Part shown: piece after piece, positions 11,465 to 31,342 of the stretch
How positions within the stretch are numbered: the stretch's first letter is position 1
Layout of the letters: the number at the start of each line of letters is the position of its first letter
DNA from: a virus
Length of the DNA stretch: 33,413 nucleotides
Virus record (IMG/VR): IMGVR_UViG_3300003322_000746
Coordinates: 1-33,413 of that record
Strand: one strand, 5' to 3'
Program-made: the position numbers and the translations under genes
Notes under the pieces: generated by a model
Seen by the model: only the letters and a program-made list of their open reading frames with translations
What the model was told of the DNA's origin: nothing
Database searches by the model: none

Positions 11465-11998
11465 ATGGACGCGTTCATCCGTGGTGACTACTTAGGCTTT
11501 CACCCTTCGGTGCTGGTGCACCGGCTCGCGAACATTGCGGGCGATGTGGATCTGGGCGAGCACACGCGGGTTGACGCGTTCGTGACCATCACCGGCCGCG
11601 TGCGCACCGGACGCAACTGCCACATCGCGACAGGTGTGGCCATCTTCGGTGGCGCCGGCACCATGTTTGACGATGCGGGCGTGATCCTGGGTGAAGGCGT
11701 CGCGCTCTCGCCGGGCGTTAAGGTGTTCACGGCTACAACGGACCTGGAATCAGGCCTGATCACCGGCCACACTGGCGCCGATCTTGAGCGCGCCGCGTTC
11801 GAGGCGCCTGTGGTGATTGAGCGCTATGCCAGCATCGGCTCCAACAGCGTGGTGCTGCCCGGCGTGCGCATCGGCGCGCAAGCGCAGATCGGTGCACTCT
11901 CCCTCGTCAATGAATCCATCGCGGGCGGTTTCGTCTATGCCGGCTGCCCTGTGCGCCTGCTACGCGCACGTCCACCGCTGAAATACGCCAATGCCTGA
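11465..11998 (+). CDS. Hexapeptide-repeat (left-handed beta-helix) acyltransferase
   Basis: 177 aa. Most of the chain is the hexad repeat pattern of left-handed beta-helix acyltransferases. The C-terminal part is almost canonical: APVVIERYASIGSNSVVLPG, then VRIGAQAQIGALSLV and the closing YAGCPVRLLRAR, resembling WbbJ/NeuD-type O-acetyltransferases. Such enzymes use acetyl-CoA or another acyl-CoA to modify sugars. The enzyme is cytoplasmic (no signal or membrane segment). Its place between large terminase and portal is unusual. It could modify sugar on phage structural proteins together with the glycosyltransferase at 18629, or host surface polysaccharide. No clear ribosome site is visible. 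The end overlaps the portal start by eight bases. Confidence 0.85.
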   Translation: MDAFIRGDYLGFHPSVLVHRLANIAGDVDLGEHTRVDAFVTITGRVRTGRNCHIATGVAIFGGAGTMFDDAGVILGEGVALSPGVKVFTATTDLESGLITGHTGADLERAAFEAPVVIERYASIGSNSVVLPGVRIGAQAQIGALSLVNESIAGGFVYAGCPVRLLRARPPLKYANA

Positions 11999-14497: not shown

Positions 14498-15322
14498 ATG
14501 CGCATCTTCGTCATGCTGTTTTCGCTACTGATTGGCGTTGCGTTCGCGCAACCCCATGGCAACCCGTCGCCTACGTCTGGTACTGCCGCTATCACCGGCG
14601 GCACGATCAATGGAGCAACGATAGGCGCCACCACGCCCGCCAGCGGCACCTTTACCACGCTACGCTTCACTACATCGCTGACGGCTGATAGCCCGGGCCT
14701 GATTATTCCGTCCGGCGATTCGCTAGATATACGCAGAGGCACGAATGCGCAATCAATGTACCTCTACAACACGTATACAAGTGCCACAAGCTATGAACGC
14801 GCCCGGTTGCAATGGTCAAACAACGTGCTCTTCATCGGGACGCAAGTTGGCAGCGGCGGCGGCACGGATCGCGGCATTCGCATTTCCAGCTCCGGCGGCG
14901 GTATTTTCGCGATAAATGAATCCAACCTCGCCGCTGTTTCGTGGGCGGTGCAGTCGAGCAACCATTTTCTCCCTGGCAGCACAAACAGTTTCGATTTAGG
15001 CAGCAGTTCACAGACTGTGCGAACTGGATATTTCGGAACATCTGTCGTGGTTGGTGGTGCAACGCTCTTGCCGACGCTATCTGGCACATCGGCGTCCCTG
15101 GGCGGTGGCGCGTTGCTAGCCGGGGATTGCGCGTCCAACACGACGACCGTAACCGGGGCTGCTTCTGGCATGACGGTCGTCGCAACGCCCGGCACCTATC
15201 CAGGCGACGGCAATTACTGGCTAGCCTACGTTTCAGCGTCGAACACGGTGACCACGAAGGTGTGCGCTGTCATCGCTGGTACACCCACGGCAAGCACTTA
15301 CAACATCCGAGTCATTCAATGA
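14498..15322 (+). CDS. Fibre-like protein with an N-terminal signal peptide
   Basis: 274 aa with an AGGAGGCATC ribosome site. The first 17 residues are a textbook signal peptide (MRIFVMLFSLLIGVAFA, then QP). The mature part starts with TAAITGGTINGATIGATTPA then SGTFTTL, a repeat type common in tail fibres and trailing phage structural proteins. It then has beta-rich segments and a C-terminal module (CASNTTTVTGAASGMTVVAT, GDGNYWLAYVSASNTVTTKV) that I have seen in other fibre-like proteins of GC-rich phages. A signal peptide on a virion-like protein is odd because virions assemble in the cytoplasm. It may be a secreted fibre-like factor rather than part of the particle. Confidence 0.75.
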   Translation: MRIFVMLFSLLIGVAFAQPHGNPSPTSGTAAITGGTINGATIGATTPASGTFTTLRFTTSLTADSPGLIIPSGDSLDIRRGTNAQSMYLYNTYTSATSYERARLQWSNNVLFIGTQVGSGGGTDRGIRISSSGGGIFAINESNLAAVSWAVQSSNHFLPGSTNSFDLGSSSQTVRTGYFGTSVVVGGATLLPTLSGTSASLGGGALLAGDCASNTTTVTGAASGMTVVATPGTYPGDGNYWLAYVSASNTVTTKVCAVIAGTPTASTYNIRVIQ

Positions 15323-24850: not shown

Positions 24851-26649
24851 TGGCCGGCCGATTTGCCCTTCGCGCCGATGATGTTGCAACGACCGCGCCG
24901 CTGCCGACAGCGACCAGCAATGGGCGCTTTTCGCTGCGAGCACCAGAGGCCGCGCCCCCATCAATGGCCGACGCCATGGCTGCTGTGCCAGGCGGCGAGA
25001 TCGTGCCTGGCTTGGAAACTGCTGCCGCACTCGGTACAGGAATGATCGGCGGCCTCGTTGGTAACGTTGCTGGTGTAGTGAAGGGCCTTACCAGCGGCAA
25101 GCTGGGTACTGCCGAAGGAACCCAAGAAGCAGCCAAGTTTGGTTCTGATGTTGGCAAAGCGATGGTATACGAACCTCGCTCGGCAAAGGCGCGCGACTTC
25201 CTGGCGTTGCTGGGGAAGGCCATTGAGGAAACCAAGATTGCTGGCCTCAACCCCGCAACCGCAATTCCCGCTGCACCAGCTATTGCGCCGGCCGCGCGCC
25301 AAGGCGCTCAAGCAGCCGAGCGCGGCGCAGCGGCCGTTGCTGAAGCCATTCCGGCGCGCGCGGCCACTGCTGCCATGCCAGGCGTCGGGGCAGCCGAAAC
25401 CGCAGCCACTGCATTGCGTGCCGAACGCGCAGCCGATCTACCGGTTCCGGTACGCCTGACGAAGGGCGAGTTGACGCGCGACGCGGAACAGCTTCGTTTC
25501 GAGCGCGAAACCGCCAAGTCGGATGCCATTGGTGCACCGCTTCGCGAGCGCGCGCAGGAAAAGAACAAGGCCATTGCGCAGAATTTTGACGCATGGATTG
25601 ATCAGACCGGATCGCAACTGCCCGGCACTGGCTCGCTGGTTGATACTGGCAAATCAGTTGACCGTGCGCTGACCGCCAAGGCGGAATTCTACAAAGGCAA
25701 GATCAACCAGGCTTACAACGAAGCCCGCGCTGCCGGTGAGATGGAGGCGCCCGTTGGTGTGGCGCCGTTGGCCGAGTTCCTGAACAGTCCTGAAGCCATC
25801 GCTGCGCGCGCAACCGGCAATGCCGGCGTCATCAACGGCGTCGAGAAAGCGCTAGAAACATTCGGCGCAATCCAACGCACGCCTGAAGGTCAGATCATTC
25901 CAGGCCAGATCAAAATTAACGATATCGAGCGTGTGCGCCAGATGGTGAATGAGATTTCTTCGCCAGGTACGCCTGATGGACGTTTCGGCCCGATCATTAA
26001 GGGCTTGATCGATCAATCAACCGAAGGCGCTGGGGGTGAAATCTACCGACGCGCACGCATGCTGCGTCGCGAGTATGCGCGCGAATTTGATGACCGCGCC
26101 ATGATCACAAGCCTGATGTCCGAAAAGAAAGGGAGCGTTGATCGCAAAGTCGCCTATGAGAAGGTCTTTGACACAGCCATCTTGAATGGCAGTCTTGATG
26201 ATATTCGCTCCCTTCGTCGCACCCTGCAAACTGCTGGAAAAGAAGGCGATGCCGCATGGAAAGACTTGCAGGCGCAGACCGTGAAGTACATTCGCGATGA
26301 AACGCTATCGAATGCCGCGCGCGATACCGCGGGACAGCCTATTCCTTCATTTGCTAAGCTGAACGGTGCTATCGAAAAACTGGACAAGAGCGGCAAACTG
26401 GACTTCGTTTTCGGCAAAAAGGGGGCCGAGCAACTGCGTCAACTGCGTGACGTGGTGGGCGATCTGCAACCACCGCCCGGCGTGGTGAATACGTCGAACA
26501 CAACCGCCACGATTATGGCGGCGCTTGCCGAAACCAGCGTGCTTGGAGGGCCTGTGCTAACTGGTTTGCGTCAGCTCAAGAATTACGCCGCCGAGCGCAA
26601 AATGAAAAAGCGCGTCAATGAAGCCCTGTCCGATCAGGCGGCGCCGTAA
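24850..26649 (+). CDS. Ejection (internal virion) protein, P22 gp16-like
   Basis: 599 aa (P22 gp16 is 609 aa). The N-terminus has two related short motifs, GRFALRADD (3-11) and GRFSLRAPE (25-33). A hydrophobic Gly/Ala membrane-like stretch follows (LGTGMIGGLVGNVAGVVKGL, about 61-80), then a long Ala-rich helical part and a soluble helical C-terminus ending in a hydrophobic helix and a basic tail. P22 gp16 is needed for DNA to cross the inner membrane. The paired GRF-LRA motifs may be peptides for packaging into the head; this is inference. Confidence 0.82.
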   Translation: MAGRFALRADDVATTAPLPTATSNGRFSLRAPEAAPPSMADAMAAVPGGEIVPGLETAAALGTGMIGGLVGNVAGVVKGLTSGKLGTAEGTQEAAKFGSDVGKAMVYEPRSAKARDFLALLGKAIEETKIAGLNPATAIPAAPAIAPAARQGAQAAERGAAAVAEAIPARAATAAMPGVGAAETAATALRAERAADLPVPVRLTKGELTRDAEQLRFERETAKSDAIGAPLRERAQEKNKAIAQNFDAWIDQTGSQLPGTGSLVDTGKSVDRALTAKAEFYKGKINQAYNEARAAGEMEAPVGVAPLAEFLNSPEAIAARATGNAGVINGVEKALETFGAIQRTPEGQIIPGQIKINDIERVRQMVNEISSPGTPDGRFGPIIKGLIDQSTEGAGGEIYRRARMLRREYAREFDDRAMITSLMSEKKGSVDRKVAYEKVFDTAILNGSLDDIRSLRRTLQTAGKEGDAAWKDLQAQTVKYIRDETLSNAARDTAGQPIPSFAKLNGAIEKLDKSGKLDFVFGKKGAEQLRQLRDVVGDLQPPPGVVNTSNTTATIMAALAETSVLGGPVLTGLRQLKNYAAERKMKKRVNEALSDQAAP

Positions 26650-28721
26650 TGGCCGAAATCATTACTCTCACCGCCCCCATGTCGGGCGGCTACCTGTGGT
26701 TCGCGCTGAAGCGCTCGAACACTGTTCAGGTAGTGGAATTCGACATTGATGCGGGTGACTTTTATGCAGCCTATCCGACCGATCACATCTACGTTCTTGC
26801 CGATACCATGTTCACGAACTGGTATTACGGACGCGGCATGGCGATCTGGAGCGATCACGCTTGCATCGAATATTTCGACGGCTCGCAGAATCCGCCACTC
26901 TACGAATGCGCGGCGATCCCCGTCAGTGCAACACGGCATGTCACACTCAAGGTTAACAATTCATACGTATGCGCGTTCATCGATGGCGACTATATCGCCT
27001 CGTACCCAGTCGCAAATCCCAACACATCTGGGCTTTCGTTGGTGCTCATTGGTGCCACCTCGGACTCGAATCCTGCGCATCCCGAAACCCAATTTACGAT
27101 CAGCAATCTATCGGTAACCGAAGTATTTACGAGCGATTGCCCAGGAGATACCATGCCCATCAACATCGTCGCGCCGCCGCCTAAATTTCAGGCCATCGAC
27201 GCCAACGGCAATCCCTATGCTGGCGGTAAGCTCTACACCTATTTCGCCGGCACCACCACACCTCAGCCAACCTATCAGGGGCTTGGTACGGGATCGCCTA
27301 ATACCAACCCGATTATTTTGGATTCAGCAGGTCGCGCAACTATTTTCCTGCTGCCAGATACGCGGTACAAATTTGTACTCTACGACGCCAACGATGTACT
27401 CGTTTACAGCGTTGATCAGATTTCGGGCGACATCTCCAATCTCAGCCAGTATGTGGCAACGGCGACGGGCGCCAACACCGCCATTACGATGGCCAATCGC
27501 TTTGCGTGGTCGTACGATGTTCGGGATTTTGGCGCAGTTTGCGACGGCAACACCGATGACACAGCAGCGGTACAAGCCGCGATTGCCGCATTCCCCACCG
27601 TGGGCGGCGATCTGTATTACTCCGGTCAAGTGCTCATCAGCGAAACCATCGTCGTGGATAAGCCTATTCGACTGATCGGCCGAGGTGGCTCCGGTTCAGG
27701 AACCGCATTGCCTCGCTCGTTCTTTTTGAAGAAATCCCCCATGACAACGGCGGGTATTCAGCTTACCGCTGTGTACGCCTGCATGTTGGGCGGTGGCGTG
27801 GCGGCGCAGGCCGGCGTGGACGGCAACGGCATTGAATTGCTTGCCGGCTCTCAATATCTGCGCGATGTGCATGTTGACCTACATACAGCATCGACTACGA
27901 ACACGCCAATCAAGGTTGGCAACGGTGTCGCCAATGTAGATGGCTGGTTTATTGACCACTGTAGCGCCGTCAATGGATTCAACGGCATCAGCATCGATGG
28001 CGATTACGGAACATTGCTGCACTTCAATGCCAACTCGAATTTTGCCAACGGCGTTCGCCTGGAAACTGGTGCCACCAAGAACAATCTTGTCAACGTGGTC
28101 ACCGCGTCTAATGGCGGTAACGGTATTTTCTTCAATACCGGCGCCAACAACAACACAGTAATTGGCGGTATCCGCAACGAGGCCACCAAGGTGGTGGTCA
28201 GCGCCAGCGCGACCGGCAACCAATTCTTCGGTTTTGACACAGCCGAGGTGTCTGACTCTAACACCGGAACGTCACAGAACACCGTTCGCGCAGAACGTAC
28301 TATCGCTGCGCGAGGAACGTTCACGCCATCACTCGCCGGTTCAACGACGCCGGGCACACAAACCTATTCAACGCGAGCTGGGAATTGGGTGCGCTATGGC
28401 GATTTCGTTTGGGTGGGAATCGCCATTGAAATGACCGCCAAGGACGCGGCGACAGCAGGCAATTTGCGCATCACCAACTTGCCGTTCGCTCTGCCGTCTG
28501 GCCTCACATCGATGGTTGCGAGTGCCGCCGTTGGTTCATTCGGCAACATCGATCTGGATGCGGGATACTCCACCATTGGCATCGGAATCGAGGCAGGCAA
28601 CACGTACATCACCATGACGCAGGCGGGTGACAATGTGGCGGTCGCGTTTCTTGCGGCAGCCAATTTGCAGGCCACAACGCGCATTTACTGTTCATTGGTT
28701 TACCCGGTGGCGCTGGTATGA
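26649..28721 (+). CDS. Tailspike with extra N-terminal domain and beta-helix
   Basis: 690 aa (P22 gp9 is 667). Four parts are visible. Residues 1-165 form a beta-rich domain homologous to the secreted protein at 30746. Residues 169-260 (MPINIVAPPPKFQAIDANGN, GGKLYTYFAGTTTPQP) form the usual virion-attachment-type start of such spikes. Residues about 289-545 form a pectate-lyase-like right-handed beta-helix (YDVRDFGAVCDGNTDDTAAV), the fold of depolymerising tailspikes. Residues about 554-690 (GTFTPSLAGSTTPGTQ) form a C-terminal beta-sandwich. It binds and perhaps cleaves host surface polysaccharide. The start at 26649 overlaps the previous stop and has only a weak ribosome site. Confidence 0.9.
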   Translation: MAEIITLTAPMSGGYLWFALKRSNTVQVVEFDIDAGDFYAAYPTDHIYVLADTMFTNWYYGRGMAIWSDHACIEYFDGSQNPPLYECAAIPVSATRHVTLKVNNSYVCAFIDGDYIASYPVANPNTSGLSLVLIGATSDSNPAHPETQFTISNLSVTEVFTSDCPGDTMPINIVAPPPKFQAIDANGNPYAGGKLYTYFAGTTTPQPTYQGLGTGSPNTNPIILDSAGRATIFLLPDTRYKFVLYDANDVLVYSVDQISGDISNLSQYVATATGANTAITMANRFAWSYDVRDFGAVCDGNTDDTAAVQAAIAAFPTVGGDLYYSGQVLISETIVVDKPIRLIGRGGSGSGTALPRSFFLKKSPMTTAGIQLTAVYACMLGGGVAAQAGVDGNGIELLAGSQYLRDVHVDLHTASTTNTPIKVGNGVANVDGWFIDHCSAVNGFNGISIDGDYGTLLHFNANSNFANGVRLETGATKNNLVNVVTASNGGNGIFFNTGANNNTVIGGIRNEATKVVVSASATGNQFFGFDTAEVSDSNTGTSQNTVRAERTIAARGTFTPSLAGSTTPGTQTYSTRAGNWVRYGDFVWVGIAIEMTAKDAATAGNLRITNLPFALPSGLTSMVASAAVGSFGNIDLDAGYSTIGIGIEAGNTYITMTQAGDNVAVAFLAAANLQATTRIYCSLVYPVALV
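27139..27155 (+). promoter_or_regulatory. In-frame ribosome site and start codon inside the tailspike gene
   Basis: CCAGGAGATACC precedes the ATG at 27153 (codon 169), giving a near-ideal AGGAG with good spacing. Translation from here would start MPINIVAPPPKFQ, the normal first residues of many phage tail-fibre/spike proteins, and yield 522 aa. It is probably the ancestral start, now inside a longer fused frame. If still used, the phage makes spikes with and without the first domain. Confidence 0.65.
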
Positions 28722-30567: not shown

Positions 30568-30641
30568 TGGAGCCAGCTCTTGGAATCGAACCAAGATCTG
30601 ATGCTTACAAGGCAACTGCTCTGCCACTGAGCTAAGCCGGC
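30568..30641 (-). tRNA. tRNA-Thr (anticodon UGU), CCA encoded
   Basis: A 74-nt cloverleaf on the minus strand. The acceptor stem of 7 bp pairs fully (one G-U), with discriminator U and an encoded CCA end. The D-arm GCTC/GAGC has a GG-containing loop. The anticodon loop is CTTGTAA with anticodon TGT, and its stem carries one U-U mismatch. The T-arm CTTGG/CCAAG has loop TTCGATT. It reads ACA threonine codons. It lies antisense to the rightward late genes, three bases after the lipoprotein stop, and its 5' end is a few bases from the terminator. It could act as a functional tRNA or a remnant of an att site. Confidence 0.9.
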
Positions 30642-30647
30642 CGAAAA

Positions 30648-30676
30648 AAGAAGCCCGCCAGAAGACGGGCTTTTTC
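30648..30676. terminator. Bidirectional rho-independent terminator
   Basis: The stem AAGCCCG/CGGGCTT (30651-30657 and 30666-30672) has an 8-base loop and is followed by TTT on the plus side and by TTTTTT (the A-tract at 30644-30649) on the minus side, so it can stop transcription both ways. On the plus strand it ends the late/lysis operon. On the minus strand it would stop the leftward early operon before the tRNA. The secreted tailspike homologue lies just beyond it. Confidence 0.85.
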
Positions 30677-30681
30677 TAAAG

Positions 30682-30744
30682 TGACACCACTCAGGGAGGA
30701 GAAATGGTGAGCCACCACCATAACTCCTACTAATCGAGGTGTCA
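30682..30744 (+). promoter_or_regulatory. Possible RNA switch hiding the ribosome site of the secreted protein
   Basis: TGACACC (30682-30688) can pair with GGTGTCA (30738-30744), the sequence that contains and follows the GAGGTG ribosome site of the 30746 gene. Inside the loop, ATGGTG (30704-30709) pairs with CACCAT (30716-30721), covering the leader start codon. Two nested perfect stems around a leader ORF suggest control of translation. No promoter with good -35/-10 boxes is visible downstream of the terminator, so expression may depend on read-through. Confidence 0.4.
30704..30733 (+). CDS. Possible 9-codon leader peptide
   Basis: ATGGTGAGC...TAA encodes MVSHHHNSY. It is preceded by the strongest ribosome site in the area (AGGGAGGAGAA) yet codes for only nine residues and ends 12 bases before the GTG of the secreted protein. 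Three consecutive histidine codons recall amino-acid-sensing leaders, but no attenuator follows. More likely it couples or modulates translation of the next gene. Confidence 0.45.
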   Translation: MVSHHHNSY

Positions 30745-30745
30745 A

Positions 30746-31342
30746 GTGAAAATTCTGCATGCGTTGCTGCTGGGAATGTTGTCATTGACCATAAATGCCA
30801 ATGCCCTCGAATTCTTCGATACATGGGAGCAGCCGGCAGGAACTGTGTCGCAACTCACGGTTCCCATGCGCGGTGGCGCGCTATACCTGGCAGGAAAGCG
30901 TGCCGCTGGAGAAACGCAATATGTCGAATTCACCATTGATGCGAGAGCGTTTTTCCAGGCATACCCAAACGATCATGTCTACGTGCTTCTGGATGCCACG
31001 CTATCTGGCGGACTATTCGGCCGAACAGGGCGCGGCATCACAATTCGCGCTGATGGGATTCGGTTTGAAAACTTCGCCTACGGCGCCGAGGTTTCTGGCG
31101 TTCGCGCTGTTCCATTCTCGACATCCGCCGTTCGCATAATCGCTCATGCCAACGCAGGCTATGTTGCCTGGTTCGTGATGAACGGCAATCAGGTCATGCT
31201 GACCGAATCTCTGGCGCTTCCTGACGAAACCATGTGGGCAGATAAATCGCTGATCATCATGGGCGCAACTTCTGATGCCAATCCAACTCGCGTCCCGGCC
31301 TCGGTCGAGATTCGTGATGTTAAGATTGGGAAGTTTCGGTAG
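30746..31342 (+). CDS. Secreted homologue of the tailspike N-terminal domain
   Basis: 198 aa, GTG start after GAGGTGTCAA. Residues 1-20 are a signal peptide (MKILHALLLGMLSLTINANA, then LEFF). The mature protein aligns along its full length with tailspike residues 4-160. VEFTIDARAFFQAYPNDHVY matches VEFDIDAGDFYAAYPTDHIY, LTVPMRGG matches LTAPMSGG, and IIMGATSDANP matches VLIGATSDSNP, with the strand order kept between. No cysteine and no membrane anchor after the signal, so it should be periplasmic or released. The last 23 bases overlap the convergent gene at 31320. It sits outside the late operon behind a terminator, like a moron. A decoy or exclusion role is inferred. Confidence 0.82.
   Translation: MKILHALLLGMLSLTINANALEFFDTWEQPAGTVSQLTVPMRGGALYLAGKRAAGETQYVEFTIDARAFFQAYPNDHVYVLLDATLSGGLFGRTGRGITIRADGIRFENFAYGAEVSGVRAVPFSTSAVRIIAHANAGYVAWFVMNGNQVMLTESLALPDETMWADKSLIIMGATSDANPTRVPASVEIRDVKIGKFR

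Follow-up and report, generated by a model that had tools for sequence, protein, structure and literature searches.

A predicted exported homologue of the lectin-like module that precedes the virion-attachment domain of a P22-type phage tailspike

The window, that is, the whole stretch of 33,413 nucleotides analysed here (IMG/VR record IMGVR_UViG_3300003322_000746), comes from a phage with a P22-like gene set (portal, scaffold, coat, gp10-like and ejection proteins) and contains, by tblastn against the record itself, two copies only of a domain predicted to be lectin-like. One is found in the tailspike, ahead of its virion-attachment domain, and the other in a separate protein with a predicted signal peptide (Table 1). 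Tentatively, we propose as a possible reading that this exported, soluble paralogue of the spike module binds a glycan of the host envelope, masks it and limits superinfection or re-adsorption.

Table 1 Features discussed in the text. Positions are those of the window, except for the relatives in other IMG/VR records.
Feature	Position	Strand	Evidence
Second predicted exported protein, 274 aa, signal peptide MRIFVMLFSLLIGVAFA plus tail-fibre-like body	14498..15322	+	Signal-peptide scan; not homologous to the lectin-like protein
Tailspike ORF, 690 aa: lectin-like extension, P22-type virion-binding domain and pectate-lyase-like beta helix	26649..28721	+	Pfam, PHROG, tblastn
In-frame spike extension, residues 1-168, bearing the shared domain	26649..27152	+	Absent from relatives; ConA-like model
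AGGAGA ribosome-binding site and ATG of the canonical tailspike start M169 (27153), possible second start	27142..27155	+	Start mapping in relatives
Terminator-like hairpin with T-runs on both strands, between late block and exported gene	30651..30672	.	Pattern scan on minus strand; plus-strand T-run visible; fold -14 kcal/mol
Exported lectin-like protein (predicted), 198 aa	30746..31342	+	ORF, GTG start; homologous to spike residues 7-156
Predicted Sec signal peptide MKILHALLLGMLSLTINANA, cleavage after ANA	30746..30805	+	n/h/c regions and AXA rule
Tailspike-shared domain, free residues 37-194	30854..31327	+	BLASTP E=5e-20; shuffle z=34
Relatives of the 14498-15322 product	L152:4309-6249, L153:3787-6210, L154:412-6246		Signal peptides

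The homology between the free protein and the spike was confirmed. BLASTP aligned the two domains with 34% identity over 160 aa (74.7 bits), and their Smith-Waterman score was 185, against a mean of 28.7 and a maximum of 57 in 2000 shuffles. The initial annotation had already seen this homology, placing it at residues 27-195 of the free protein and 4-160 of the spike; the relationship holds and the extents are corrected to about 37-194 and 7-156. The blocks LTxPMxGG, VEFxIDAxxFxxAYPxDHxYVL and GATSDxNP do appear in the same order in both copies. It had also named a missing profile match or differing folds as grounds against the idea, and what we found was a significant sequence match and predicted secondary-structure elements that correspond. 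At the nucleotide level, the copies differ at 80, 49 and 100 of 148 codons in positions 1, 2 and 3 respectively, and the smallest number, at position 2, indicates that the protein has been conserved in both. Only 25 of the 54 residues identical between them share the codon, so that the split of the two copies is old. With an identity of only 34% they may differ in ligand.

The sequence of the domain found no match in Pfam (PF13385 included), PHROG, NCBIfam or PDB. AlphaFold2, given the spike copy with the free copy as a second row, produced for the spike copy an all-beta jelly roll (pLDDT 75.2, pTM 0.76), and with this model Foldseek retrieved 424 PDB matches at E<=0.001. The best 50 of these 424 are ConA-like lectins, glycan lyases/glucanases or glycan-binding domains. 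Among the matches listed are galectin-10, PL7 alginate lyases, ulvan lyase and GH16, together with the lectin-like part of clostridial neurotoxin binding domains, a match that is a likeness of fold only and has no bearing on toxicity. Annotated ConA-like lectins also appear among the matches to viral models. Modelled alone, the free protein gave a poor model (pLDDT 49.7), in which the order of the strands corresponds and the best matches belong to the same superfamily, none of them at E<=0.001. The structural comparison suggested by the initial annotation, done through database matches and strand order and with this poor model on the free side, thus found both models matching ConA-like folds. 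The shared domain is predicted to be a ConA-like jelly roll and, given that this fold is predicted and no sequence family matches, we file it by fold and not as a member of a sequence family. It would bind glycan, judging from the fold, although a ConA-like fold is also compatible with a catalytic or structural role. With the ConA-like modules of phage tails (LamG, PF13385) the window domain shares the superfamily jelly roll, as predicted, and the place on a tail protein; unlike them it has no sequence match to the family and its second copy is a separate exported protein.

The spike itself is of the P22 type. The ORF matches PHROG tail spike entries and, by tblastn, phage tailspikes, and PF12708 (pectate lyase-like) was found at residues 290-493 (E=1.5e-7, 31.9 bits against a cut-off of 27), so that PF12708 and PHROG together identify the beta-helix body of such a spike. 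Residues 169-690 follow the plan of the P22/Sf6-type tailspikes (Lederbergvirus-like head-binding domain plus beta helix), whereas the 168 residues before the canonical start, and the possible second start at M169, are additional to it. In annotated phages, the matches to relatives of the spike begin at residues 166-187. We also mapped the tailspike starts in 80 IMG/VR loci collected by the head-closure protein, taking as relatives the 38 loci, some of them near-duplicate records, in which the N-terminus of the spike could be aligned. In all 38 there is a tailspike start codon no more than about 2 codons from the window M169, and the open frame upstream of it is normally short. The virion-binding domain is present in the window spike and aligns with those of the 38 relatives, but it begins at residue 169 and not at the first start of the ORF. 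Since the relatives start near M169, the 168-residue domain stands before the canonical virion-binding end. The initial annotation had taken the spike copy for the N-terminal domain proper of the spike, and this view has to be given up, as the copy belongs to an in-frame extension upstream of the canonical start. By this mapping, the shared domain is an extra module ahead of the virion-attachment domain and sits at the inner, virion-proximal end of the spike, not at the receptor-binding tip; the spike copy would be part of the virion. A phage (H1, MW202483) that apparently spanned the extension was rejected as a chance match, since the gene upstream in that phage proved to be unrelated.

Before M169 stands a well-spaced AGGAGA (AGGAGA-TACC-ATG), and only 2 of the 155 in-frame internal ATGs in 18 genes of the window have such a ribosome-binding site. 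The extension begins by a TAATG overlap with the gp16-like gene. Perhaps the gene gives both products, of 690 and 522 aa, from its two starts. The same arrangement could come from an artefact or a recent accident, in which a separate small gene lost its stop by sequencing error or mutation, and the phage would then have two free lectins, one cytoplasmic and one exported. The TAATG start, a complete domain that ends where the free protein ends and the AGGAGA-TACC-ATG that follows do look like two genes in one frame, and the case is known from a single metagenome-derived record. We consider this explanation very improbable, however, because one of the 38 relatives (L018:3774-6092) likewise joins a lectin domain, unrelated to that of the window, in frame to its spike, and because the homology of the copies and the signal peptide are independent of the fusion.

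That cousin, L018, also carries a long in-frame extension before its P22-type virion-binding domain, likewise started by a TAATG overlap. The extension matches Pfam Laminin_G_3 (PF13385; Concanavalin A-like lectin/glucanases) with E=2.4e-10, above the curated cut-off, and since it contains a lectin domain we discarded the idea that this long open frame upstream of the spike arose by chance. An inner ATG is found at the position of the window M169, but without a ribosome-binding site. No sequence similarity was found between the L018 extension and the window domain, and on these alignments the lectin fusion of L018 at the same spike junction is an independent, convergent case. This case speaks for the fusion in the window being real and for the extension being a module of lectin type. 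Laminin_G_3 was also found in other large ORFs of two further cousins, at the C-terminus of a spike in Vibrio phage 1.211.A and, below the cut-off, in L089.

The gene of the free copy is present as the initial annotation gave it (plus strand, GTG start, 198 aa). Its signal peptide (MKILHALLLGMLSLTINANA/LEFF) is clear, as judged by the n/h/c and AXA rules only, and none was found at the N-terminus of the spike with the same crude, rule-based score, which agrees with the earlier description of both. The free copy contains no cysteine at all, and therefore no lipobox cysteine, while the spike copy has four. From its signal peptide the protein is predicted to leave the cytoplasm. In the reading that we prefer, the product would be exported through Sec and lose its signal peptide, and late in infection the mature single-domain lectin-like protein would bind a host-envelope glycan, probably the same one that the module on the spike contacts. 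The glycan would be masked on the infected cell and, after lysis, on the debris, and fewer superinfecting or progeny virions would attach. A ligand common to free protein and spike module is inferred; the masking or exclusion role is conjectural.

The interpretation in the initial annotation is supported in part: the homology and the predicted export hold. The decoy that it had proposed, in its simple form of a soluble receptor-binding part, is weakened because in this phage group the N-terminus of the spike attaches to the tail and the domain sits before that attachment domain. A soluble lectin that shares its ligand with a virion-proximal lectin module is plausible. A difficulty for masking is that Sec delivers its substrates to the periplasm; to get to the cell surface, the protein would have to be released by lysis or transported further. 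Access limited to the periplasm before lysis makes an effect at the lysis stage, keeping progeny off the debris, more likely than one that protects the living cell; otherwise the target may be periplasmic. It also counts against the masking reading that no binding site was identified in the domain. A precedent for a phage-exported protein in superinfection exclusion, with a periplasmic target, is Llp of T5, the gene of which adjoins that of the receptor-binding protein (PMC9586334). Like Llp and Cor of phi80/T1, small envelope-exported blockers of adsorption, the window protein has a signal peptide (by rule). Llp and Cor are, however, lipoproteins with an outer-membrane protein as their target, and neither is derived by copying a domain of a spike, whereas the window protein has a lectin-like predicted fold; as it lacks a cysteine and a lipobox we do not file it with the Llp/Cor family.

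The late block before the free gene comprises the spike, a small gene of tail type, two small membrane proteins, a DUF5675 protein and a lipoprotein-like gene. The hairpin that follows (Table 1) is apparently a bidirectional terminator, and the exported gene stands after it, before convergent genes on the opposite strand. A search of its own strand gave no sigma-70-type promoter for it; as it comes last in the late region, behind a terminator, it is probably transcribed on its own. The same interval holds a complete tRNA-Thr (anticodon TGT) at 30568-30641 and a candidate phage small RNA at 30644-30745, both on the minus strand. The latter has CUCCUCCC in a hairpin loop, a terminator and a sigma-70-like candidate promoter (TTGACA-17-TATGGT, 30745 to 30717). 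Its match to Rfam anti-hemB (RF02837) scored 36.1 bits (E=3.5e-7), below the cut-off of 49.5, and the Betaproteobacteria toxic sRNA family was matched more weakly. Together with a relative from Rhodoferax, the small RNA gives a weak indication that the host is perhaps a betaproteobacterium. Upstream of 30746 the leader on the plus strand contains a mini-ORF and a strong hairpin; it was considered as a riboregulator and rejected, since it is better explained as the complement of this small RNA and its promoter.

These surroundings bear on a different role, that of a periplasmic lysis or envelope factor, in which the domain would bind a glycan of the periplasm, either peptidoglycan or LPS in transit, and as infection ends would help to weaken or separate the envelope. 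The gene comes directly after the lysis-type block (the two small membrane proteins, the DUF5675 protein and the lipoprotein-like gene), and polysaccharide lyases are among the top fold matches listed. Xanthomonas phage PBR31, related to the window phage by the head-binding domain of the spike, encodes beside its lysis genes a signal-peptide esterase, gp40, that resembles tail-associated hydrolases and for which its authors suggest a role in lysis (PMC10975493). The two proteins are alike in being exported, in resembling tail-associated proteins and in adjoining the lysis block (PMC10975493), but gp40 is an enzyme of another fold, encoded on the opposite strand, and its description does not present it as copied from a spike domain of PBR31. 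We regard a lysis role as unlikely, since a terminator stands between the lysis block and the exported gene, the protein shows no catalytic motif that we could identify and the homology to the spike module offers no reason for such a role.

The isolated position of the gene after the terminator would also suit accessory cargo. ConA-like domains are common in bacterial secreted proteins of adhesion and glycan degradation, and the old split of the copies permits two separate captures of an adhesion domain, the free copy then altering the stickiness or aggregation of infected cells or the biofilm matrix. A lectin directed in this way at host or environment seems to us unlikely. No integrase or repressor was found by PHROG and Pfam in the larger ORFs of the 33-kb record, possibly a fragment, which makes a lasting benefit to a lysogen improbable, and no bacterial homologue appeared in genome contigs or in 369 + 289 genomes (658) of two classes, the latter without positive control and thus weak negatives.

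Searches elsewhere gave equally little. The whole free protein had no relative among phages at E<=0.01. Three weak matches, with E 0.2-3, were all that the spike copy and the mature form of the free protein gave at E<=5, and we judged them to be chance. Plasmids and 45 cousin records had no relative of the domain, nor did IMG/VR when searched, hmmsearch included, for the domain or its spike; weak matches to the domain in L015, L107 and L108 were rejected as chance. The free-standing versions that the initial annotation had expected in other phages were therefore not found, and with no relative in any of the collections searched there is no co-occurrence to support a linked function. Intragenomic paralogues in the cousins are mostly genes of tail appendages, and those that we read lack signal peptides. 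Exported phage exclusion proteins and ConA-like modules on tails are already known. The open-access literature searched contained no report of tail fibres with signal peptides or of exported copies of spike domains, and thus none of an exported paralogue of a phage's own spike module.

The window encodes a second predicted exported protein (14498-15322), with a strong ribosome-binding site before its gene and what we take to be a tail-fibre-type motif. Its C-terminal 70-80 residues have three IMG/VR relatives (65-79% identity), in proteins of 646, 807 and 1944 aa (L152, L153 and L154). By eye, each of the three has a signal peptide; their bodies are tail-fibre-like or collagen-like, and the genes adjoining the first are recognisably those of phage head and packaging. 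The four proteins, that of the window included, have an invariant cysteine pair and even cysteine counts (2, 8, 12 and 38), which points to folding outside the cytoplasm. We count this second exported tail-like protein, and the lectin fusion of L018, in favour of the preferred reading of the lectin-like protein. ORFs of at least 150 aa with a signal peptide numbered two in 903 kb of cousins, none in 402 kb of other IMG/VR contigs and two in the 33-kb window, in a small survey with a crude score that misses some true ones, such as the long L154 protein with its late start codon. Two P22-like cousins (L033:9610-10152 and L050:20944-21414) have after the ejection-protein genes a signal-peptide protein of ~180 aa, in L033 directly before lysis-type genes; considered as a relative of the exported proteins of the window, it was rejected as unrelated. 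Just before the portal gene of the window lies a hexapeptide-repeat protein (11465-11998, plus strand; Pfam Hexapep E=2.1e-14) with acyltransferase-type repeats.

Two exported proteins of one phage that resemble parts of the virion surface might suggest that the lectin-like protein is itself part of the particle, or binds the spike module, and joins virions at or after lysis. Phage DSL-LC05 has tail-spike-type genes between portal and scaffold, the interval that 14498-15322 occupies in the window. We find such an accessory of the virion quite unlikely, as the open-access literature provided no precedent and the exported lectin has no recognisable attachment domain.

The signal-peptide tail-fibre-like proteins of the four phages possibly represent a wider class of exported tail-like proteins. 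A broader generalisation, that phages export soluble counterparts of modules of the virion surface as effectors on the cell exterior or on released virions, with the spike made with and without its lectin from two in-frame starts, we hold to be doubtful. A spike with two starts and a lectin module at its inner end is relevant to the way in which P22-type tails acquire accessory binding. If the masking reading is true, it would suggest that the signal peptides on tail-like proteins in four phages mark a functional class and not annotation noise, and if the exported copy masks the glycan recognised by the virion module, the phage would have a receptor-side exclusion system built from a part of its own spike.
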